From: Thermoplasmata archaeon
GTDB lineage: Archaea > Thermoplasmatota > Thermoplasmata > Methanomassiliicoccales > Methanomethylophilaceae
Reading direction: 5' to 3'
DNA length: 64,000 nt
NCBI GenBank assembly: GCA_015063185.1
Contig: SUSY01000003.1
Location: forward strand, 18,401-82,400
The notes below the pieces were generated by a model. It worked only from the letters and a program-made list of their open reading frames with translations. It was not told the origin of the DNA and did no database searches. Both the position numbers and the translations under genes were made by a program. Shown piece by piece: positions 5,238 to 20,073 of the stretch (position 1 is the stretch's first letter; each line of letters opens with the position of its first letter).

Positions 5238-6602
5238 TCATTGACAGAAGGTTTTCCTACGATACAATGTGGTACCATCCCTTGCGGTCGTGTTGAACAG
5301 ACAGAATGGGATCAGTTTTCCATCGAGGGTTACAACGTGGATACAACAGCGTTCCCACCTCTCCACCTCCCCGGTCCAGACATCCTGGAAGGCCATTGCT
5401 GAGACAGTAAGGTAGTGGGTCTTCGCCCTCTTGACAAATGTTCTCCAGGAGTTGTCATCTTTATCACGGTCTGGATCCTCCCCATCCATGGAATCCTCGA
5501 TGAATCTCCAAAGTTCAGACACCTCCTTCCTGGTCTTGTCGGCAACATTGTCGGTCTTCTGAGGTGGACCAAGTGCCATCGTCGTGAGCGGGAACAGAGA
5601 CCCATCTGGGAACACGACGGATAAGGATTTGAGATCGCAGTGAACATTGGAACATGATGTGGGGATGAAGTTATCCGCTTTCAACATACCCTTAGTTTGC
5701 ACTTCAATCTCATGTGCCAAATCCGGAAGAAGGACACGATTCTCATCGGTAGGCTCAACAGGATACCTTCCGAAGTGTGCAATGGGCTGGAAGTGAACAC
5801 CTTTGACCACTGGCACATTCTTGGCTGCGAACCTGATTATGTCTCCTACGTGATGCAGATTGATATCGGGGGTGACGGTGACGACAAGGGTGATTCCGAT
5901 GCCCACTTCTCCACAATTCTCGATGGCTTTCTTCTTGATGTCGAAAAGAGGCTTTCCACGTGTCTGTATGTAGATCTCGTCATCGGTTCCATCGAACTGG
6001 AAATAGAAATCATCGACACCTGCATCCTTGAGTGCCCTAAGATAATCCATGTCCTTGGCAATACGGACGGCATTGGTGTTGACCTCTACGTGTTCTATAC
6101 CCATGTCCTTAGCCATCTTGACGATTTCTGGAAGATCGTCCCTGACGGTAGGCTCCCCTCCAGAGATCTGGACACATCTTGGGCTCTTCACATAATCCAC
6201 AACAGTCTGGAACATTCCTCTGATGGTATCCATATCAGGGTGGAAATCATAACCGCATCCATTAGCAGTGGCGAAACAGATCGGACAGTTCAGATTGCAA
6301 CGGTTGGTAACCTCAACGACATTCAAACAGGAGTGCTGAAGATGCTGATTGCACAATCCACAATCATGGGGGCAATCCTTGATTTGTGGAATTGCAAATT
6401 TCTCAGGAGTCTTAGGAACAGCTGCGAACTCATACAGATACTTGTAATTCTCCGCACCAGTCCAAATCTTGACCTTCCAAGTACCATGCTCTGGACAGGT
6501 CTTTACGATGTAGACGTCGTCACCCTCAACGATCTTATCCGCGTGAATTGTCTTCATGCACTCTGGACAAAGTGCATTGGTTTCACCGATCTTCTCTGCC
6601 AT
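5238..6602 (-). CDS. radical SAM protein, Tes-like (MJ0619-type tetraether lipid synthase family)
   Basis: N-terminal rubredoxin-like CPEC...CPEHG, CPHDCGLCNQH, EVTNRCNLNCPICFA (CX3CX2C), SGGEPTVRDDLPE. Confidence 0.65.
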   Translation of the reverse strand: MAEKIGETNALCPECMKTIHADKIVEGDDVYIVKTCPEHGTWKVKIWTGAENYKYLYEFAAVPKTPEKFAIPQIKDCPHDCGLCNQHLQHSCLNVVEVTNRCNLNCPICFATANGCGYDFHPDMDTIRGMFQTVVDYVKSPRCVQISGGEPTVRDDLPEIVKMAKDMGIEHVEVNTNAVRIAKDMDYLRALKDAGVDDFYFQFDGTDDEIYIQTRGKPLFDIKKKAIENCGEVGIGITLVVTVTPDINLHHVGDIIRFAAKNVPVVKGVHFQPIAHFGRYPVEPTDENRVLLPDLAHEIEVQTKGMLKADNFIPTSCSNVHCDLKSLSVVFPDGSLFPLTTMALGPPQKTDNVADKTRKEVSELWRFIEDSMDGEDPDRDKDDNSWRTFVKRAKTHYLTVSAMAFQDVWTGEVERWERCCIHVVTLDGKLIPFCLFNTTARDGTTLYRRKTFCQ

Positions 6603-7170: not shown

Positions 7171-8292
7171 TCACCAAGTTCCGTAGGTACCGAAGTCCCT
7201 GGCTGCCCTAGTCAGTGCGAGGAGGTTTCCGGGGATGGTGTACGGGGGCGTCTCACAAGTAGTTCCGAGGATGAATCCCTTCTTTGCGTCACGTCCAGCA
7301 AGGACAACTTCCTTTGCTCTCTCGTAGACCTTCTTGGGGTTGGGGTTGATCATCAGCTTGGTGTCGACACCGGGCATGATGGTGGTGACGTCCTGGAACT
7401 CGTTCTTCAGGAGCTCAGCGGGGAACTCGTTCTGTCCCATGTAACCGATCTCAAGAACGTTGAAGGGGGACCATACGAGGTTCTTCTTGAAGACCTTGTA
7501 GTCGGTCTCGTGGTTACCGCAGAGGTGGTAGAAGACCTGGGGTCCTGCTCCTCTTCTGAAACACTGGTCAACGTAGGTGTGCATCTTCTTTGCGGAGAAC
7601 TCCTCGACCATCTCGTCGCTGAAGATATCGTTGTTAGCGAGGATGGATCCGACGATCAGCATTGCCATTCCGTACTTGTCGGAAAGGATGTCTGCTCCGT
7701 TGATAGAAGTACCAACGTAGGTGTCGATCAGATGGTGTGCGATGTCGGGCTCAGTGAAGGTCCACATGATGAAGTTCTCGACTCCGACGAGCTCTGCTCC
7801 TGCACCACAAAGGTCGAATCCGTAGGAGATAGGAACGAGGGTGTGGGGGAGGTTCTGCTGGACGTAGTCGTAGAGACCGTAGAACAGAGGGATGGTGGAT
7901 CCCTTCTTGAGGTCTTCCTTCTCGATGGGGACGAGCTTCTCGACTTCCTCAGGCTCGGACATGATGGGTCCAGTGGAGACTGGAGGCAGAGTGTCCTTGT
8001 ACTCGAGGGTGACACCGAGCTCTCTTACCCAGGGAAGGGAGAAGAACCAGTGTGTAACCGGCAGGAGGTCGAACAGCTCTGCGACGTATCCGACGCAGTG
8101 AATTCCGAGTTCAGGCTTCTCGTAGAAGTCCCTGATCGTGAAACCACAGTGGACTGCGGCGTTCGACAGCATGATGGGGTCGACGTCGACACGGTCGTGG
8201 TAGTTGTCCACGAAGGGGCTTGCGAACCTCTTGGCTGCATTTGCGTGCCAGCCCTTGAGGTCATTTGGGGGAAATAACTCTTCGTAACCCAT
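7171..8292 (-). CDS. uroporphyrinogen decarboxylase-family (MtaA/CmuA-like) methyltransferase
   Basis: UroD-fold pattern with candidate Zn ligands HLCGNH ... GTTCETPP (HxC..C as in corrinoid methyltransferases); long AT-rich upstream region. Confidence 0.7.
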   Translation of the reverse strand: MGYEELFPPNDLKGWHANAAKRFASPFVDNYHDRVDVDPIMLSNAAVHCGFTIRDFYEKPELGIHCVGYVAELFDLLPVTHWFFSLPWVRELGVTLEYKDTLPPVSTGPIMSEPEEVEKLVPIEKEDLKKGSTIPLFYGLYDYVQQNLPHTLVPISYGFDLCGAGAELVGVENFIMWTFTEPDIAHHLIDTYVGTSINGADILSDKYGMAMLIVGSILANNDIFSDEMVEEFSAKKMHTYVDQCFRRGAGPQVFYHLCGNHETDYKVFKKNLVWSPFNVLEIGYMGQNEFPAELLKNEFQDVTTIMPGVDTKLMINPNPKKVYERAKEVVLAGRDAKKGFILGTTCETPPYTIPGNLLALTRAARDFGTYGTW

Positions 8293-11445: not shown

Positions 11446-12351
11446 ATGAAAAACTGGGAATTCGGTAAGGTTCAGGGAAACAAGATTGCCATCGACGAGA
11501 GACTGTCGGACATGATGGGAATCGTCGAAGGGGGATACGTATACAGCACGCTTTTCGAGTACACGGACGAGGAGCCCAAGAAGTATGAACTCATCCTCTC
11601 GATGTATCCTCAGGAGAACTACCGTACTCTCACAAACATCACCCTCTACATGAAGGACGTTCCGGGATCCAGTGCACAGGGTGCAAAATTCCTCGGCGAA
11701 AGAGGGATCAACATCCTCAACTCCATCTCCCTCGATGGGATCTCCGACACCATCATCATCTGGAAGATGTTGGCCGACCTGAGTTTCGCAGGCGAACTGG
11801 GAATCCTCAAGGAAAAGTTCGAGTCCCTCAAGGCTGCCGATGACCCCTCCGTCTCCCTCATCGAGCAGCTGGAGATCAAACCTGCCGACATAGGAAGGGT
11901 GTTCCGTACCGAAGCCAACGTCAACAAGACCGAACTCAGACGCGGTGCACCGGTCACGCTGAAGGACGGCATGTATGACATCTCCGTCGAATACGGGGAC
12001 ATCCTCAAGGACATGGACGGGAAGAACACCCTCATCGTCGCAGATGTGGGCTCATGGATCATGTCGGTCACATTCTTCAAGGAGAAGACCACGCTGAGAA
12101 AGATTTCGATCGATATCCCCGACTGCCCAGGTTCGATAGCGCAGTGCCTCTCCTGGATCGCGGAGCAGGGAATCAACCTGATCTCCGTGTTCAGCAAGGT
12201 CAAGATCTGCTATCAGACCATGACCTTGGACCTTGTCGCAGACTTTGCCGAATGCAGAATGGATAAGGACGAATTCGAAGCTGCGCTCAAATCCGCATTC
12301 GAGAACATGAATGGAATCTACACGCTTACACAGTTCGAAGAGCTGGAGTGA
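11446..12351 (+). CDS. double ACT-domain protein leading the ACS/CoFeSP cluster
   Basis: Two ACT-like units (NITLYMKDVPGSSAQGAKFLGERGINI; ISIDIPDCPGSIAQCLSWIAEQGINLISVF); stop lies 4 nt before the acsB start. Confidence 0.72.
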   Translation: MKNWEFGKVQGNKIAIDERLSDMMGIVEGGYVYSTLFEYTDEEPKKYELILSMYPQENYRTLTNITLYMKDVPGSSAQGAKFLGERGINILNSISLDGISDTIIIWKMLADLSFAGELGILKEKFESLKAADDPSVSLIEQLEIKPADIGRVFRTEANVNKTELRRGAPVTLKDGMYDISVEYGDILKDMDGKNTLIVADVGSWIMSVTFFKEKTTLRKISIDIPDCPGSIAQCLSWIAEQGINLISVFSKVKICYQTMTLDLVADFAECRMDKDEFEAALKSAFENMNGIYTLTQFEELE

Positions 12352-12355
12352 TACC

Positions 12356-14542
12356 ATGGACATTGCGAAAATCATCGAAAGATACGGAGACATCACCGGA
12401 CCTGATTTGGATGTGCTCCTCGGAACGGAGGAGAACATCGATGTCGGAACCCTGCTGTCCATGGCATCCGAGGGGTCCAAGGCAGTTGTGTCGCTGGCCA
12501 GGTCCATGGCATACAGGGCCGCTGCCGATGTGGGCAACGACCACGAACTCATCTATCCGGAGACAGGATACGGCCTCCCAACCATCTGCGCATGGAAGGG
12601 TATCGGATCCATGACCCTTGGACAGGCGATAGAGTTCCTTGACTCGCTTCCAGAAGCCGGTGCCTCGGAGCTCGGGGACGGGTTCGTCGCTGGAGAGAAT
12701 GCCATGTTCGCAGCGGACATCATCGAGGCGATCACATACATCAAAGGGGACCAAGAGCGTGCAGGTTTCATCCCCGACAGGACACTCAGAGGACTCGGAC
12801 TCAGTTTCGTCGACGAGACCATTCCCGGAGCCATCGCGTTCCTCGGATCATTGGAAGATCAGGAGAGCATCAAGAAGATGGCCAGGGACTTCCAGGGCAA
12901 AGGAATGGTGGGGCTCGCATCAGGTGACTACCCCGACCAGTTCGTCGCAGCAGGTGTGAAGATGGGATTGGACAGACTGTTCTATCCGGTCGGATTCTTC
13001 ACCGGAACCGTCCATGCACTCAGCTTCGCGGTCCGTGCGGCACTCACATTCGGCAACATCCAACCCGGAGACAGGGAAGGACTGACCGAATATCTGAAGA
13101 AGAGACCTAAGGTCATCGTCATTCAGAACGGAAAGCTCAACAGACTCGATGCTGCATTCGCATTCGCTGCACTTCTCCACAGTGCATCCATCGTCACAGA
13201 CCAGGACCTGCCTGAGATTCCACACTGTGTGAAGGTCTGCAAGAATCCCTTGGAGATGATCCAGAACGGAATCGAGGAGCGCGGGATCACAGTCAAACTC
13301 GAACCCATCGAACTTCCGGTCGGATACGCACCGTCCTTCGAGGGAGAGGTCGTCAGGAAGCCCGACACGTATGTGGAGGCGGGAGGAACGCGCAGCCCCG
13401 CATTCGAAGTGCTCCTCTCAAGGAAGGAGAACGAGGTCGAGGACGGTAAGGTCACACTCATCGGAAAGGAGATCGACGAGATGGAATCCGGTTCCATCTG
13501 CTCCGTCGCACTCATCGTGGAGGTCTACGGACAGAACATGCACGATGACCTCGAACCCGTCATGGAGAGGAGATTCCATGCGGCCATAAACTTCGCAGAG
13601 GGAGTGTGGCATGCAGGACAGCGCAACTCCAATTGGATAAGGATCAGTAAGACCTCCAAGGAGGCGGGATTCAAGTTCATCGACCTCGGAAGGATCCTCG
13701 TACACAAGATCAAGGAGGAGTTCGGACAGGTCGTCACCAGGGTACAGGCCACCGTCGTCACCGACCCGGAGGAACTCGAGAAACGCCTGGTCGAGGCCAA
13801 GGCGGCATACGATGCCAGGGACGAACGCATGAAAGGACTCAAGGACGATAAGGTCAACGTGTTCTACACATGCGAGATGTGTCAATCCTTCGCACCCACT
13901 CACATATGTATCATCACCCCCGAAAGGCTCGGACTCTGCGGTGCAATCAATTGGCTCGATGCCAAGGCCAGTAACGAGCTCGACCCCAAGGGCCCCAACA
14001 AACCCCTCGACATCGGTACGCCCATCGACGCCGAGAAGGGGGAATGGGAGATCGTCAACGATGCGGTCAGGATGCAGTCCATGGGAACCATCGAGAGAAT
14101 GTGCATGTACAGCATCATGGATGCCCCCATGACCTCATGCGGATGCTTCGAGGCGATCGTCGCCATGACCGTGGATATGCAGGCGGTAATCATCGTCGAC
14201 AGGGACTTCTCCGGAATGACACCTGTTGGAATGAAGTTTTCATCACTCGCAGGTTCGATAGGAGGAGGAAGGCAGACCCCCGGATTCATGGGAATCGGAA
14301 GGAAGTACGTAGCGAGCGAGAAGTTCATCTCCAAGGAAGGAGGAGTGCTGAGGATCGCTTGGATGCCCAAACAGCTGAAAGACTATCTCGCAGAGGACAT
14401 CAGAAAGAGAGGTGAGGAGCTTGAATGCCCTGACCTCCTCGATAAGATAGCTGACGAGACGGTCACCGATGACGCAGAAGGACTCATGGCATGGATGGCC
14501 GAGGTCGGTCACCCCGCACTCATGATGGACCCCCTGCTCTAA
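12356..14542 (+). CDS. acsB: acetyl-CoA synthase, bacterial-type full-length (AcsB/CdhC)
   Basis: 728 aa; A-cluster ligands C-x2-C-x8-C-x9-C (CEMCQSFAPTHICIITPERLGLC) and MTSCGCFEA; VARMFT-like linker and GGGRQTPGFMGIGRKY. Confidence 0.95.
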   Translation: MDIAKIIERYGDITGPDLDVLLGTEENIDVGTLLSMASEGSKAVVSLARSMAYRAAADVGNDHELIYPETGYGLPTICAWKGIGSMTLGQAIEFLDSLPEAGASELGDGFVAGENAMFAADIIEAITYIKGDQERAGFIPDRTLRGLGLSFVDETIPGAIAFLGSLEDQESIKKMARDFQGKGMVGLASGDYPDQFVAAGVKMGLDRLFYPVGFFTGTVHALSFAVRAALTFGNIQPGDREGLTEYLKKRPKVIVIQNGKLNRLDAAFAFAALLHSASIVTDQDLPEIPHCVKVCKNPLEMIQNGIEERGITVKLEPIELPVGYAPSFEGEVVRKPDTYVEAGGTRSPAFEVLLSRKENEVEDGKVTLIGKEIDEMESGSICSVALIVEVYGQNMHDDLEPVMERRFHAAINFAEGVWHAGQRNSNWIRISKTSKEAGFKFIDLGRILVHKIKEEFGQVVTRVQATVVTDPEELEKRLVEAKAAYDARDERMKGLKDDKVNVFYTCEMCQSFAPTHICIITPERLGLCGAINWLDAKASNELDPKGPNKPLDIGTPIDAEKGEWEIVNDAVRMQSMGTIERMCMYSIMDAPMTSCGCFEAIVAMTVDMQAVIIVDRDFSGMTPVGMKFSSLAGSIGGGRQTPGFMGIGRKYVASEKFISKEGGVLRIAWMPKQLKDYLAEDIRKRGEELECPDLLDKIADETVTDDAEGLMAWMAEVGHPALMMDPLL

Positions 14543-14554
14543 GGAGAATCTACA

Positions 14555-15484
14555 ATGACAGACATACCCCCAGTCAATGAGAAGTACACCGGCACGATCG
14601 GAGAGGTCGTACTCGGTAAGGGAGATTACATAGTGGGCGGAGCGAAGGGTATGCCCTTCCTCTCCTTCGAGAACCGCACCAACAGGAGACCCATCGTCGC
14701 AGGAGAGGTTTTCGACTCCATCGTCGATTACCCCGAACTCGCAGCCAAAATGTTCGACGGACGTCAGAAGGACCCTGTCGAGTGGGCACTCATGTGGAAG
14801 TCCATGGGTGTCGACATGATCTGCGTCAGGCTCGTCAGCACTGACCCCGCCAAGGGCGGCACGTCCCCCGAAGCCTGTGCGGAACTCGTGAAGAAGATCT
14901 CCGACAGGACAGGACTCCCAATCATCGTCAGCGGATGCGGCATCCTCGATGTCGACATCCCCGTGTTCACAGCAGTCAGCGCCGCAGTCACGGATAGCAG
15001 ACTTATCCTTTCCAAGGTGGACGAGGACGAGTACAAGAAGCTCGCCACCGTCGCCATCGCCAACAACCACATCATCATCGGATTCGCCAACTTGGACGTC
15101 AACCTGTCCAAGCAGATGAACATCCTCCTCACCGACTTCGGAGTGAAGAAGGAGAACATCCTCACGGATCCGCTCATGGCACCCCTCGGAATGGGACTGG
15201 ACTACTCCTACTCGGTCAACGAGAGGATCAGGATCTCTGGACTCATGGGGGACAAGATGCTCCAGCAGCCTCTGATCTGCGACTGTACCGGTGCATGGGA
15301 TGTGAGCGATGCCATCAACGAGGAGGATCCCGCTCTTGGTGATGCCGGACTCAGGGCCACTTGGTGGGAGGCCATGACCGCTATGTCCGCCATCGTATCC
15401 GGTGCCGACATGGTCATCATGCGTGGCCCCGGAGCGGCCGATATGATCCTCGGATACTGCGACGAACTCAGGGATGTGATCTGA
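14555..15484 (+). CDS. acsD: corrinoid iron-sulfur protein small subunit (AcsD/CdhD)
   Basis: TIM-barrel pattern; DMICVRLVSTDP, DPLMAPLGMGLDYSYSVNERIR, VIMRGPGAADMI. Confidence 0.93.
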   Translation: MTDIPPVNEKYTGTIGEVVLGKGDYIVGGAKGMPFLSFENRTNRRPIVAGEVFDSIVDYPELAAKMFDGRQKDPVEWALMWKSMGVDMICVRLVSTDPAKGGTSPEACAELVKKISDRTGLPIIVSGCGILDVDIPVFTAVSAAVTDSRLILSKVDEDEYKKLATVAIANNHIIIGFANLDVNLSKQMNILLTDFGVKKENILTDPLMAPLGMGLDYSYSVNERIRISGLMGDKMLQQPLICDCTGAWDVSDAINEEDPALGDAGLRATWWEAMTAMSAIVSGADMVIMRGPGAADMILGYCDELRDVI

Positions 15485-16797
15485 TGCCTACCGCTATCGA
15501 ATTCTTCAAACTCCTGCCCAAGACCAACTGTAAAGATTGCGGACAGCCTACGTGCCTCGCATTCGCTATGCTTCTGTCCAACCAGAAGGCCAAGATCGAG
15601 GACTGCCCCCATGTCAAACAGGAAGCCAAGGAGACCCTCGCAGAGGCATCCGCACCACCTGTCAGGACCATCGAGGTCGGAGACATCAAGATGGGAGGAG
15701 AGACCGTACTGTACAGGCACGAGCGTCGCTTCAACAACCCGATCGCATACGCGCTCACCGTTTCGGACAGACTTGACACGAACGCCATCGAAGAGAGGGT
15801 CGCATACATCAAATCCATCGCCTTCGACAGGGTCGGTATGATCTTCAAGGTCGACATGGTGTCCGTCAGGAACGACTCCGGTAACGCTGATGAGTTCGCA
15901 CGTGCCGTGAAGGATGTCTGTGCAACCTGGAAGGACCCGATCGTCATCGAGTCCACCGATGCCGATGCCATCAAGGCAGCTTTGTCGGTAGCTGATAGGA
16001 AACCACTGATCTATGGTGCCGATAAAGACAGATTGGAGACATACGTCAACATCGCCAGGGAGAACAAGTGTCCTCTCGCATTGATCTGTGACGGTCCGGA
16101 AGGTGCATTGGAGCTCACCGAGGCATGCGAGAAGATGGGATTCACCGACCTGATCCTCGACCTGACCACCGAAAATCTCAAGGAGACCCTTGAGGAACAG
16201 ACCATAGTCAGACGTGCCGCGATCAAGAAGAAGTTCAAACCCTTCGCATACCCGATGATGAACAGGGTCGGTTCCGGCGAATATGCCGTGGCCACCGCAG
16301 TGATGTCCACACTGAAGTACGGAAGCCTGGTCATCTTCGACGACCTGAAGAACTACGAGGCACTGCCCCTGTTCACCCTCAGGCAGAACATCTACACGGA
16401 CCCGCAGGTACCGATCCAGGTGAAACAGGACCTGTACCCCATCGGAAACCCCGATGAGCACTCGCCCATCATGTTCACCACCAACTTCTCCCTCACGTAC
16501 TTCACCGTACGTGCGGACATCGAGAAGTCGAAGATCCCGGTGTGGTTGCAGATCGTCAATACGGAGGGACTGTCCGTCCTCACCGCATACTCCGCCGGAA
16601 AGTTCGAACCGGAGCGCATCGCGGACGCGTTCGCGGAATCGGGTGTACTGTCCAAGTCTGACGGGCCCGTCATCATCCCCGGACTGGTCACGCGCATCTC
16701 CGGTAAGCTTCAGGAACTCATCGGAAGGAAGGTCGTCGTCGGAACCAACGAGTCCCGTGACATTCCGAAACACCTTAGGGAACTCACTTCACAATGA
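15484..16797 (+). CDS. acsC: corrinoid iron-sulfur protein large subunit (AcsC/CdhE)
   Basis: CX2CX4CX16C cluster motif (CKDCGQPTCLAFAMLLSNQKAKIEDCP), GGETVLYRHERRFNNP; start overlaps the acsD stop (TGATG). Confidence 0.94.
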   Translation: MPTAIEFFKLLPKTNCKDCGQPTCLAFAMLLSNQKAKIEDCPHVKQEAKETLAEASAPPVRTIEVGDIKMGGETVLYRHERRFNNPIAYALTVSDRLDTNAIEERVAYIKSIAFDRVGMIFKVDMVSVRNDSGNADEFARAVKDVCATWKDPIVIESTDADAIKAALSVADRKPLIYGADKDRLETYVNIARENKCPLALICDGPEGALELTEACEKMGFTDLILDLTTENLKETLEEQTIVRRAAIKKKFKPFAYPMMNRVGSGEYAVATAVMSTLKYGSLVIFDDLKNYEALPLFTLRQNIYTDPQVPIQVKQDLYPIGNPDEHSPIMFTTNFSLTYFTVRADIEKSKIPVWLQIVNTEGLSVLTAYSAGKFEPERIADAFAESGVLSKSDGPVIIPGLVTRISGKLQELIGRKVVVGTNESRDIPKHLRELTSQ

Positions 16798-17533
16798 GTT
16801 CCGCAAGATGTCCCACCGACTTCGCGAAAGCGGAGTCGTCCGGGACATCCACGACTTCTCCCCTCATCGCACAAGCGGTGACATGATCGTCACGTTCGAT
16901 CGGTACCACTTCGGTAAGACCAAGGCGTGCAGCCTCATCCATCAATGGAGTATAATCCATCTGAGGTATGTTGTTGATCACCAATATCCTACGTCCGACC
17001 TTCACACCGACCTCGTCCGCCAACTGAGACAGGCGTGCGGCGGTACGTACCCCTGTGATGGTGGGGTCGGATACGAGCACCAATACATCCGCACGTGGCA
17101 AGACCTTCCTGGAAAGATGCTCCATACCGGCCTCGTTGTCCACGACCGTGAACCTGTACTTCGGGATCATGTCGTTGAAACAGTTCCTAAGGACATCGTT
17201 GACGAAACAGTAACAACCCTCCCCTTCCGGCCTACCCATGACAAGAAGGTCCACATTGTCCCCCTCTGATACGTTCTGTTGAACCTTGGTGAGGATATAG
17301 TCCTGTTTACTGATGCTCGCGGGGACCTGATCGGGATCCGCGACGAGATCATTCCTGATGCCACCGATGGTACCGAACGTCTCGAGACCCAATTTCTCAC
17401 CGAGATTCGAATTCGGATCCGCATCCACTGCCAATACCAAGGACCTCTTCGCAAGATTACGGATGAGTTGCGAGGAAATGGTGCTCTTACCGACGCCGCC
17501 CTTTCCCGCGAATGCTATGATCACAGACCGCAC
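16784..17533 (-). CDS. CooC/AcsF-type nickel-insertion ATPase
   Basis: FAGKGGVGKST P-loop, DADPNSNLGEKLG, GRPEGEGCYCFVN CxC motif, DNEAGMEHLSR. Confidence 0.93.
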   Translation of the reverse strand: MRSVIIAFAGKGGVGKSTISSQLIRNLAKRSLVLAVDADPNSNLGEKLGLETFGTIGGIRNDLVADPDQVPASISKQDYILTKVQQNVSEGDNVDLLVMGRPEGEGCYCFVNDVLRNCFNDMIPKYRFTVVDNEAGMEHLSRKVLPRADVLVLVSDPTITGVRTAARLSQLADEVGVKVGRRILVINNIPQMDYTPLMDEAARLGLTEVVPIERDDHVTACAMRGEVVDVPDDSAFAKSVGHLAELIVK

Positions 17534-18528
17534 CTCTTCCTCATCTCTATGGACAATCCCTGAAGGAGATCGAACACGTTGTCAAGGAGTTCCTCATCTG
17601 CACCGCCGAGACCGCACTGAGGGGTCAACAAAGACTGGTGGATGAGGAGTTCCCTATCGACACCTTTCGATACCAGATCGTCGATGTGTTCCATCATACG
17701 GTCCGCTAGCGTCTCGGGAGTCTCACCCTCTATGAGGTTGCTGTTGGGAACGATGCCCCATGCAAGGGAACCCCCTCTCTTCAGGAAATCGGAGATCTCC
17801 TCGGGGTAGAGCGTTATATTCTTTCCGTACGCGTACGCATCGAAGTTCAGAATGTCGATGTTGGTCCTGAGCACCAGGGACCAATTGGTGTTCCCACAAC
17901 AATGGATGGCCTTCTGACAGTCCACACCCTCCATCGCCTCGTTGATCCATGAAAGCGCCTCCTCATCCGAAATGGATGCGAAAGGTGTTCCGAGGAGCGA
18001 AAGTGAGGGTTCGTCGAAGAACATGATGACGTTATCACAGTATTCCTTAAGCTTCCTGACCTGCCATCTTGCTGACAGATTGACGGTCTTCCTCACGATC
18101 TCCCCATAGGATTCGTCATAGATCGTCGGACGACCGGTTACATCCTGGACCTGAAGGCCCTCGCTGATGGGACCGGTGACCTGCCCCTTGATGGCCCTGA
18201 GACCGGAAAGATCGCGACCGATCATCTCATAGAATCCTGCGAAGTGTTCGGGCATAGCCTCGTAGTAATCAAGGTTCTCCTCGATGATCGCCATGTATGC
18301 TTCGGTGGGATCGTAATCGTTCAGATCCACCATGACCTTGTCCCCCTCCTCGATCAATCCGGGGAGATGCTCACCGGTCTGGAGATACATTCCCTCTTTG
18401 TAACCGAGTGCTGGCATCTGGGGCCACATCGGGATGTCCACACGTCCATCCAATACCATGTCCACGGCTGCCTTCGGATCCTTCTGAGGCATCGAGCCGA
18501 TGAGTGTAGTCGCGAAATTCCAATCCAT
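17521..18528 (-). CDS. core MetE-like folate-independent methionine synthase (MesB-like)
   Basis: 335 aa, C-terminal MetE barrel only: LIGSMPQ, KGQVTGPIS, FFDEPSLSLLG, Zn motif HCCGNTNW, LLTPQCGLGG. Confidence 0.85.
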   Translation of the reverse strand: MDWNFATTLIGSMPQKDPKAAVDMVLDGRVDIPMWPQMPALGYKEGMYLQTGEHLPGLIEEGDKVMVDLNDYDPTEAYMAIIEENLDYYEAMPEHFAGFYEMIGRDLSGLRAIKGQVTGPISEGLQVQDVTGRPTIYDESYGEIVRKTVNLSARWQVRKLKEYCDNVIMFFDEPSLSLLGTPFASISDEEALSWINEAMEGVDCQKAIHCCGNTNWSLVLRTNIDILNFDAYAYGKNITLYPEEISDFLKRGGSLAWGIVPNSNLIEGETPETLADRMMEHIDDLVSKGVDRELLIHQSLLTPQCGLGGADEELLDNVFDLLQGLSIEMRKRCGL

Positions 18529-18573: not shown

Positions 18574-20073
18574 TCAGAAACGCACGGAAGGGAACAATGC
18601 GGAATCGGTATGCGGGATGAATTGGGCCGATGTGTACTCGTCATAGAACACGGGGTCCGAACTGAGATCGAGATATGTCATCTTGGCGAACGCATCGTCT
18701 ATACGCTCACGGAAGGATCCGGATACCAGTGCAGCCCTCGCACCGGCCAAGGAGGAATTTCCCAGATACACGAACTTGTCCGCCCCGACATCAGGGAACA
18801 TGCCTATCGTGATGGCCGAATCCATGTTGATGAAATTACCGAAACCTCCTGCGATGTACACCTTCTCCAGATCGGAGAACTCGAGACCCAGATTCCTGAC
18901 CAACGACCTCGTGGCCGAAAATATCGCTGCCTTGGTCATGATGACGTCCTTGATCTCCGGCTCCGAGATACCTATGTCCCCATGGACGATGTACCTTCCA
19001 TCCATCAATCTGGCACTATCTGTGAAGTTACCACGTTTGTCTATGATGTCATTGAGATAGAGCTGTGCGATCAGATCGATTATACCTGATCCGCAGATGC
19101 CTTTCGGCTCCATTCCACCGATCACAGTGAATCTGGCAATGCCATCCTCGATGACAATACTGTCTATGGCACCGGGGCGGGCCATCATCCCAGACCTCAG
19201 ATTGCCTCCTTCGAACGCAGGGCCTGCGGATGATGAACAGACCATCATCATGTCCTTATTGCCTAATGCGACCTCACCGTTGGTCCCTACATCTATCAAA
19301 AGACTTATTCCTTCGGAAATGTCCATCCCGGCATAGACGATATCACTGGTGATGTCCCCACCGACATAGGCTGAGATACAAGGCATCGTCACAACTCTGG
19401 CACTTTTGGAAACATCGAGTCCGCTCTCTTCACCGGTGATGTCGGAGGATGTTATGACTGGAACATATGGTTCTTCTCTGATCGGTGTAGGGTCCACACC
19501 CACGAACAGATGCTCCATCACGGTGTTACCTGCGATGTAGACGGACTCGATGTTGTCCCCACCGCCCGCACGCTCGATGATCCCATTCATAGTCTTCAGG
19601 ATGAGGCCCCTGAGTTCGGATGTGCCACCATCGGCCGCATGCTGTATCCTTGCAAGTACATCGTCCCCAAGGACCTTCTGTCCATTCACATCGGAGAATG
19701 ACGAGATGCATCTACCATCGGACATGTCTATGAGATCGGCAGCGACCGTGGTGGTACCGATGTCCACTGCCAGACCCAGTCCGCTGGATAATGGGTCGAA
19801 GTCCCCGACATCGGACTCCAGGTAGTCCACTGCAGCGATCACCTTGGAACCATCGACCTCCGGAACATTAACGGTCATGTCCCTATCCACGTACGTAACA
19901 CAAGCGAGGAGACGATCGTCACCGATCTGTACGACACAACGGCCGCACCTACCTGTTCCGCCACAGGGTGTGGCGATCTGAACACCTGCAGATTTGGCCG
20001 CATCCGATACCGATGTACCTGCATCCACGACGACCCCCTTTCCGGATGGGAGGAACCTCACTGTGAAACCCAT
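18574..20073 (-). CDS. reductive activator of corrinoid protein (RACo/AcsV-like), 2Fe-2S plus ASKHA domain
   Basis: CGGTGRCGRC...LLACVT 2Fe-2S motif; AVDIGTTTVAADL; DVGTNGEVALGN; GICGSGIIDLIAQL; IAGGFGNFINMDSAI. Confidence 0.92.
   Translation of the reverse strand: MGFTVRFLPSGKGVVVDAGTSVSDAAKSAGVQIATPCGGTGRCGRCVVQIGDDRLLACVTYVDRDMTVNVPEVDGSKVIAAVDYLESDVGDFDPLSSGLGLAVDIGTTTVAADLIDMSDGRCISSFSDVNGQKVLGDDVLARIQHAADGGTSELRGLILKTMNGIIERAGGGDNIESVYIAGNTVMEHLFVGVDPTPIREEPYVPVITSSDITGEESGLDVSKSARVVTMPCISAYVGGDITSDIVYAGMDISEGISLLIDVGTNGEVALGNKDMMMVCSSSAGPAFEGGNLRSGMMARPGAIDSIVIEDGIARFTVIGGMEPKGICGSGIIDLIAQLYLNDIIDKRGNFTDSARLMDGRYIVHGDIGISEPEIKDVIMTKAAIFSATRSLVRNLGLEFSDLEKVYIAGGFGNFINMDSAITIGMFPDVGADKFVYLGNSSLAGARAALVSGSFRERIDDAFAKMTYLDLSSDPVFYDEYTSAQFIPHTDSALFPSVRF

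Follow-up and report, generated by a model that had tools for sequence, protein, structure and literature searches.

Gene content of the acs locus

The window (the whole 64,000-nucleotide stretch analysed) belongs to a metagenome-assembled genome of the family Methanomethylophilaceae (G000; 1.41 Mb in 52 contigs, 87% complete). The following features were annotated in its acs cluster.

11446..12351 (+): ACT-domain protein, 301 aa, gene 1 of the acs operon; weak matches to Pfam ACT and PRK08577
12356..14542 (+): AcsB, long-form acetyl-CoA synthase (ACS), 728 aa; NF040764, full-length match to Moorella ACS, dN/dS
12356..12451 (+): N-terminal tail of AcsB, ~32 aa, no match to CODH; ACS homology begins near residue 33–39
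12452..13303 (+): region of AcsB aligned to Moorella A1; contains alcove G, L, V and F and evolves faster than the catalytic part
13871..14146 (+): A-cluster ligands C506, C509, C518, C528, C595 and C597; invariant alignment columns
14555..15484 (+): AcsD/CdhD, CFeSP small subunit; Pfam CdhD 108 bits, PRK04452 279.7 bits (cut-off 280)
15484..16797 (+): AcsC/CdhE, CFeSP large subunit with Fe-S domain; PRK04165 515.9 bits (cut-off 306), Pfam FeS
16784..17533 (−): CooC/AcsF-like P-loop ATPase of the CbiA/MinD family
17521..18528 (−): MesB-type core methionine synthase, 335 aa; weak PRK00957 match (4.5e-6), zinc ligands H209, C211, D230 and C305
18574..20073 (−): AcsV/RACo-type reductive corrinoid-protein activator, short form, 499 aa; Pfam RACo_C_ter 281 bits

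The ACT-domain gene, acsB, acsD and acsC lie on the plus strand, and acsV, mesB and the cooC/acsF-like gene converge on them from the minus strand. The identical arrangement was found in most AcsB-bearing genomes of the family, and further families of the order share it. The ACT-domain gene precedes acsB in most AcsB-bearing genomes of the family, and its product is possibly an amino-acid sensor; we also considered it as a remnant of CODH, but this was rejected because a CODH profile gave no match. The CooC/AcsF-like ATPase, retained in most AcsB clusters, is probably a nickel loader. The product of 18574..20073 scored 426 bits against the AcsV model, below the cut-off of 800. Elsewhere in the window lies a radical SAM protein (5238–6602, minus strand; TrsS model 525.7 bits, cut-off 490), with a CmuA/MtaA-like methyltransferase near it at 7171–8292.

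AcsB is a full-length acetyl-CoA synthase

The open frame spans 12311–14542, and an ATG at 12356, located 4 bases after the stop of the upstream gene and preceded by a GGAG-type site, yields the 728-aa protein. AcsB exceeded the cut-offs of NCBIfam NF040764 (838.8 bits versus 800) and PRK09529 (833.5 versus 809), and the Pfam domains CODH_A_N, CdhC and ACS_CODH_B_C were matched in order along its length. In sequence alignments with PDB entries, the Moorella and Carboxydothermus hydrogenoformans enzymes covered residues 35/39–728, whereas a methanogen CdhC of solved structure (472 aa) aligned to residues 319–722 only. The sequence-only reading, which had called this gene a long AcsB of about 728 aa and methanogen CdhC a short form without the N-terminal domain, was correct on both points. 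AcsB has the composition of the long form (A1 plus A2/A3 in ~700–730 aa, six cysteines, alcove), and its length and A1 (N-terminal) domain set it apart from archaeal CdhC.

All six A-cluster cysteines (506/509/518/528/595/597) were present, with exactly the C-x2-C-x8-C-x9-C plus CGC spacing previously claimed. Of the five CO alcove residues named in PMC11321310 (G145, I146, V149, F229, F512), four were identical and I146 was replaced by Leu. An AlphaFold2 model (mean pLDDT 78.6) matched full-length ACS structures, and its match to the N-terminal domain of CODH-bound Clostridium autoethanogenum ACS (6yua_A, TMt 0.90) agrees with the docking domain recognized earlier. The dN/dS relative to G092 was 0.045 for AcsB, 0.065 for AcsC and 0.072 for MesB; AcsB is under strong purifying selection. 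The nearest records, at 94 and 77% identity, were MAGs assigned to Candidatus Methanomethylophilaceae and recovered from the gut of sheep and goats.

Absence of CODH

Profile searches with TIGR01702 and PF03063 found no CODH adjacent to AcsB and none elsewhere in G000, as expected from the earlier remark that a docking domain was kept beside no CODH gene. Because G000 is 87% complete, the absence stands on the genus as a whole, by family profile searches: CODH was found in 0/6 genomes (G000 and five others, of which G094 is 99% complete), so that AcsB here is no part of a bifunctional CODH/ACS complex. In the other five genomes the matches were hybrid-cluster-type proteins of ~511–574 aa (TIGR01702 18–26 bits), or there were none. 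AcsB itself was present in 6/6 genus genomes, and many other family members were without it. Among 102 family genomes, 10 had both AcsB and CODH, 24 AcsB alone, 8 CODH alone and 60 neither, a weak association (Fisher p 0.05). Genera g6 and g9 (G008, G033, G049 and others; L036–L040, L042) show the inverse of the window, with a CooS-type CODH and no AcsB.

Co-occurrence with MesB and the missing methyl branch

The association of AcsB with MesB was strong: 27 of the 102 family genomes had both, 7 AcsB alone, 1 MesB alone and 67 neither, such that 27/28 MesB genomes carried AcsB (Fisher 3.9e-17, calculated on genome counts with kinship ignored). The zinc ligands of MesB, together with S12 and D172, were invariant in 25 sequences, and their spacing (+2, +21, +96) was within one residue of that in Dehalococcoides mccartyi (+2, +21, +97). 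The H-C-D/E-C ligands, this spacing and the short single-domain form are those of the MesB family of core methionine synthases defined by Price et al. (PMC7857596), who already stated that Methanomassiliicoccales have MesB only. A sequence search of the PDB returned repeat-protein artefacts and a weak match to methionine synthase 3rpd, and no MetE-type synthase was found in G000. A MesB homologue of 50% identity occurs at L144:10061–11068 (G005:C144) on a contig that ends 0.85 kb beyond it; AcsB, AcsC and AcsD were not found in G005, which is 96% complete.

Neither MTHFR (PF02219) nor an AcsE-like Pterin_bind protein was detected in any of the six genus genomes. A strong, dihydropteroate-synthase-like Pterin_bind match occurred in 33 of 34 genomes scanned, and a weaker, AcsE-like match in exactly the 13 of 34 that had MTHFR, often adjoining it, and in no others. 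In having ACS, CFeSP and a core methionine synthase but no CODH, MTHFR or AcsE, the genus shares the gene pattern of D. mccartyi.

CODH-ACS fusions and their decay

Long AcsB was found in 78/400 Thermoplasmata genomes of many families, and in 22 of these 78 it lay inside an open frame of >1300 aa. The first ~650 aa of these frames are a CooS-type CODH, and the whole polypeptide is ~1370 aa; in G247 one protein matched both TIGR01702 (702 bits) and NF040764 (991 bits). We read ten fusion frames and found the near-invariant Cys/His positions kept in nine. Single-frame fusions of ~1360–1400 aa with intact CODH metal ligands were seen at L098:5909–9985, L101, L103, L105, L109, L113, L115, L116 and L117. 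In the tenth, G359 (L108:4935–9047), the CODH half is full-length and in frame with AcsB; we regard it as a pseudo-domain because 9/12 conserved Cys/His were lost.

In g15 (family f2), G347 and g11 (the window's family), AcsB is preceded by ~300 aa unrecognised by Pfam. Profile-profile comparison matched this region to parts of the C-terminal half of CODH, with probability 98%, E 2.5e-13 and score 106 for g15 and G347, and 92%, 6.7e-7 and 59 for g11 (E-values apply to single comparisons). Control scores were ≤30 for six other cluster families and the A1 domain, and ≤22 for 60 column-shuffled CODH profiles. The window's genus has no CODH remnant and retains the ~32-aa tail alone. The relatives thus show a decay from the intact fusion, through a CODH half without ligands (G359) and ~300-aa remnants (g11, g15, G347), to nothing in the window's genus. 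The presence of CODH and AcsB as one polypeptide in many Thermoplasmata, together with its decay in relatives, is new here.

In phylogenetic analysis, 46 Thermoplasmata long AcsB sequences formed one clade relative to bacteria, CSMAG Euryarchaeota and CdhC (SH-aLRT 99), in a tree where bacterial sampling was thin and CdhC was a long branch. The window's family falls in this clade together with the fused and remnant forms. A grouping of the window's family with CdhC was not rejected by an AU test (p 0.236), and because of this result and the long CdhC branch we draw no conclusion about the deep root. Because of their long branches, G002 and the g14 orphans were omitted from the second tree and the rate tree. 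How old the fusion is and how many separate losses occurred are both uncertain, because the clade topology is partly resolved and lineages with CODH as a separate adjacent gene exist (G114, G124).

Faster evolution of the docking domain

For A1, mean identity to four references was 44% among the order's fused forms versus 32% in the window's genus; for the catalytic part the values were 55% and 51%. On a fixed topology, the ratio of A1 to A2/3 branch lengths was 0.94 for CODH-coupled Thermoplasmata and 1.21 for bacteria plus CSMAG. It was 1.57 for the window's family, 1.67 for g15, 2.21 for f3, 1.81 for G239 and 1.27 for G347, all of them uncoupled. By uncoupled we mean that no intact CODH is joined to AcsB or encoded next to it; a separate gene for CooS occurs in some members of f3, of g15 and of other uncoupled groups. 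Compared with the catalytic domains, A1 has a higher rate of evolution in uncoupled forms.

Variant loci in related genomes

Genus g14 (L087–L091; G096, G097, G098, G099, G101) has the same syntenic locus with the ACT-domain gene, AcsB, CooC and AcsV, and at L087 a radical SAM protein and an aldehyde dehydrogenase flank it as they do the window's locus. AcsD, AcsC and MesB are gone from g14 loci, and no CFeSP was found elsewhere in these genomes, which are up to 99% complete. The g14 AcsB proteins (35–37% identity) have an altered alcove and all six A-cluster cysteines, with dN/dS of 0.12–0.21. The g14 protein is an ACS without either known partner, CODH or CFeSP, and is under purifying selection. 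At L125 (G002, genus g3), AcsB forms a long branch and keeps all A-cluster cysteines; its alcove F229 is Met and F512 is Arg, and CooC was not found in the cluster. HgcA, the mercury-methylation corrinoid protein, occurs in genus g8, whose genomes belong to the gut family (L156:1086–2156, L157:776–1798 and L158:724–1758 in G032, G030 and G031; 459–471 bits, cut-off 275), and G046 (L159) has a similar NVWCAAG protein.

Proposed function

The ACS reaction is reversible, and its direction is not readable from sequence. We propose, with a probability of about 0.7, that AcsB is a catalytically intact ACS which lost its CODH partner and now serves as an acetyl-CoA decarbonylase for biosynthesis. The gene content suggests that homocysteine receives a methyl from acetyl-CoA by way of ACS, CFeSP and MesB, with release of CO. 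Since the known folate route to methyl-CFeSP and the known CO source are both missing in the genus, acetyl-CoA cleavage remains. The sequence-only reading overlooked the context of MesB, CFeSP and activator that, in our view, accounts for the retention of an ACS without CODH.

Under the proposed mechanism, acetyl-CoA would acetylate the A-cluster and CoA would depart; the acetyl group would then split into CO and a Ni-bound methyl, which would pass to the cobalt of CFeSP (AcsC/AcsD). MesB, the presumed acceptor, would move the methyl from CFeSP to homocysteine, forming methionine, and CO would leave the cell because no CODH is present to oxidise it. AcsV would reactivate oxidised corrinoid, the CooC-like ATPase would load nickel, and gut acetate would be the source of acetyl groups. 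The basis of this scheme is the gene set of D. mccartyi and the acetate-derived methionine methyl in that bacterium; direction, CO release, the CFeSP-to-MesB step, nickel loading and acetate source are drawn from family knowledge and this precedent. Methyl transfer from CFeSP to MesB is a hypothesis in D. mccartyi as well, and corrinoid proteins for methanol or methylamine are other possible methyl donors to CFeSP.

Four other explanations were weighed. The host archaea are methyl-reducing methanogens (PMC10804542), which would fit an AcsB that builds acetyl-CoA from environmental CO and from methyls passed by methylotrophic corrinoid proteins to CFeSP. The retained CO-binding alcove and the nearby CmuA/MtaA-like methyltransferase (7171–8292) would fit as well. 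We consider this unlikely: a methyltransferase joining such corrinoid proteins to CFeSP is not known, the linkage to MesB is left unexplained, and free CO is presumably scarce in the gut.

It is quite improbable that ACS is idle or vestigial and that CFeSP alone supplies MesB from methylotrophic corrinoid proteins, so that methionine is not made from acetyl-CoA. A methyl-corrinoid donor would suffice for MesB, CODH has been lost, and AcsB is missing altogether in many family members; against this, every catalytic ligand of AcsB is intact, its dN/dS is 0.045 and all six genus genomes have kept it.

We give very little credence to a CooS encoded in trans that feeds CO through the retained A1 tunnel for acetyl-CoA synthesis, as the sequence-only reading had suggested. 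AcsB does keep A1 and the alcove, and some related genera (g8 and g11, for example) carry AcsB with a distant CooS. For the window's genus, however, this idea is rejected by the lack of CODH in all six genomes (the Prismane matches being the hybrid-cluster proteins), and AcsB and CODH occur almost independently of each other in the family, A1 has changed faster where AcsB is uncoupled, and neither MTHFR nor AcsE is there to methylate CFeSP.

Recent gain of a bacterial acs cluster without CODH by the window's lineage would fit the long, bacterial type of AcsB and is close to the horizontal acquisition proposed earlier, but it is hardly tenable given the single Thermoplasmata clade (fused CODH-ACS included), the 78 AcsB-bearing genomes of the class, the cluster order conserved in many families of the order and the CODH remnants in relatives; the loss of CODH invoked in the earlier reading is supported by the genus counts and by the decaying fusions.

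More tentatively, and at somewhat under even odds, we suggest that a single-polypeptide CODH-ACS was ancestral in Thermoplasmata and that its CODH half disappeared in situ on at least two occasions while methanogens of the methyl-reducing type were colonising guts. A CO2-fixing enzyme would thereby have become a CO-releasing methyl donor for methionine, and the g14 ACS would imply an undescribed partner or reaction. In the parts of the literature on Methanomassiliicoccales covered here, a truncated Wood-Ljungdahl pathway, CdhDE or a folate methyl branch is mentioned, and neither a CODH-less ACS nor a fusion appears.

Acetyl-CoA decarbonylation offers a testable reason for acetyl-CoA synthase in methanogens unable to make CO, predicts a small CO release by ruminant methanogens, and would back the acetyl-CoA-to-methionine route of D. 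mccartyi with independent evidence from archaea. The decay series supplies natural variants for probing the part that the CODH-docking domain plays in ACS, and the natural fusions are attractive for structural study of CO channelling.

Comparison with known systems

The Thermoplasmata fusions (e.g., L098, G247) are the closest homologues with a functional-looking CODH and share the AcsD-AcsC-CooC-MesB surroundings; unlike the window's AcsB, they are ~1360 aa long, with an N-terminal CODH bearing all metal ligands. The monomeric ACS of C. hydrogenoformans (1ru3, 7nyp; ~40% identity) is likewise a full-length, three-domain protein and can be isolated without CODH, but that organism, in contrast to the window's genus, has CODH and can form a CODH/ACS complex (7zkj). 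Methanosarcina thermophila CdhC (9c0s_E) shares the catalytic domains and A-cluster over residues 319–722, but is a 472-aa protein without A1 that was solved in a CODH/ACS complex.

In D. mccartyi, which has an incomplete Wood-Ljungdahl pathway with core-MetE/MesB (PMC7005905, PMC7857596), acetate provides the methyl of methionine, and the CO is reported to escape from the cell (PMC7005905). The window's genome resembles it in having AcsB, AcsC, AcsD and MesB and in lacking CODH, MTHFR and AcsE, and the transfer of the acetate methyl to methionine is the route proposed for both. Unlike D. mccartyi, the host is an archaeal methanogen of the Thermoplasmata that came to this gene set within a clade containing CODH-ACS fusions, and its MesB, CooC and AcsV are encoded in one cluster with AcsB. 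The window's system appears to be a new archaeal variant of an acetyl-CoA-to-methionine route already known from D. mccartyi.
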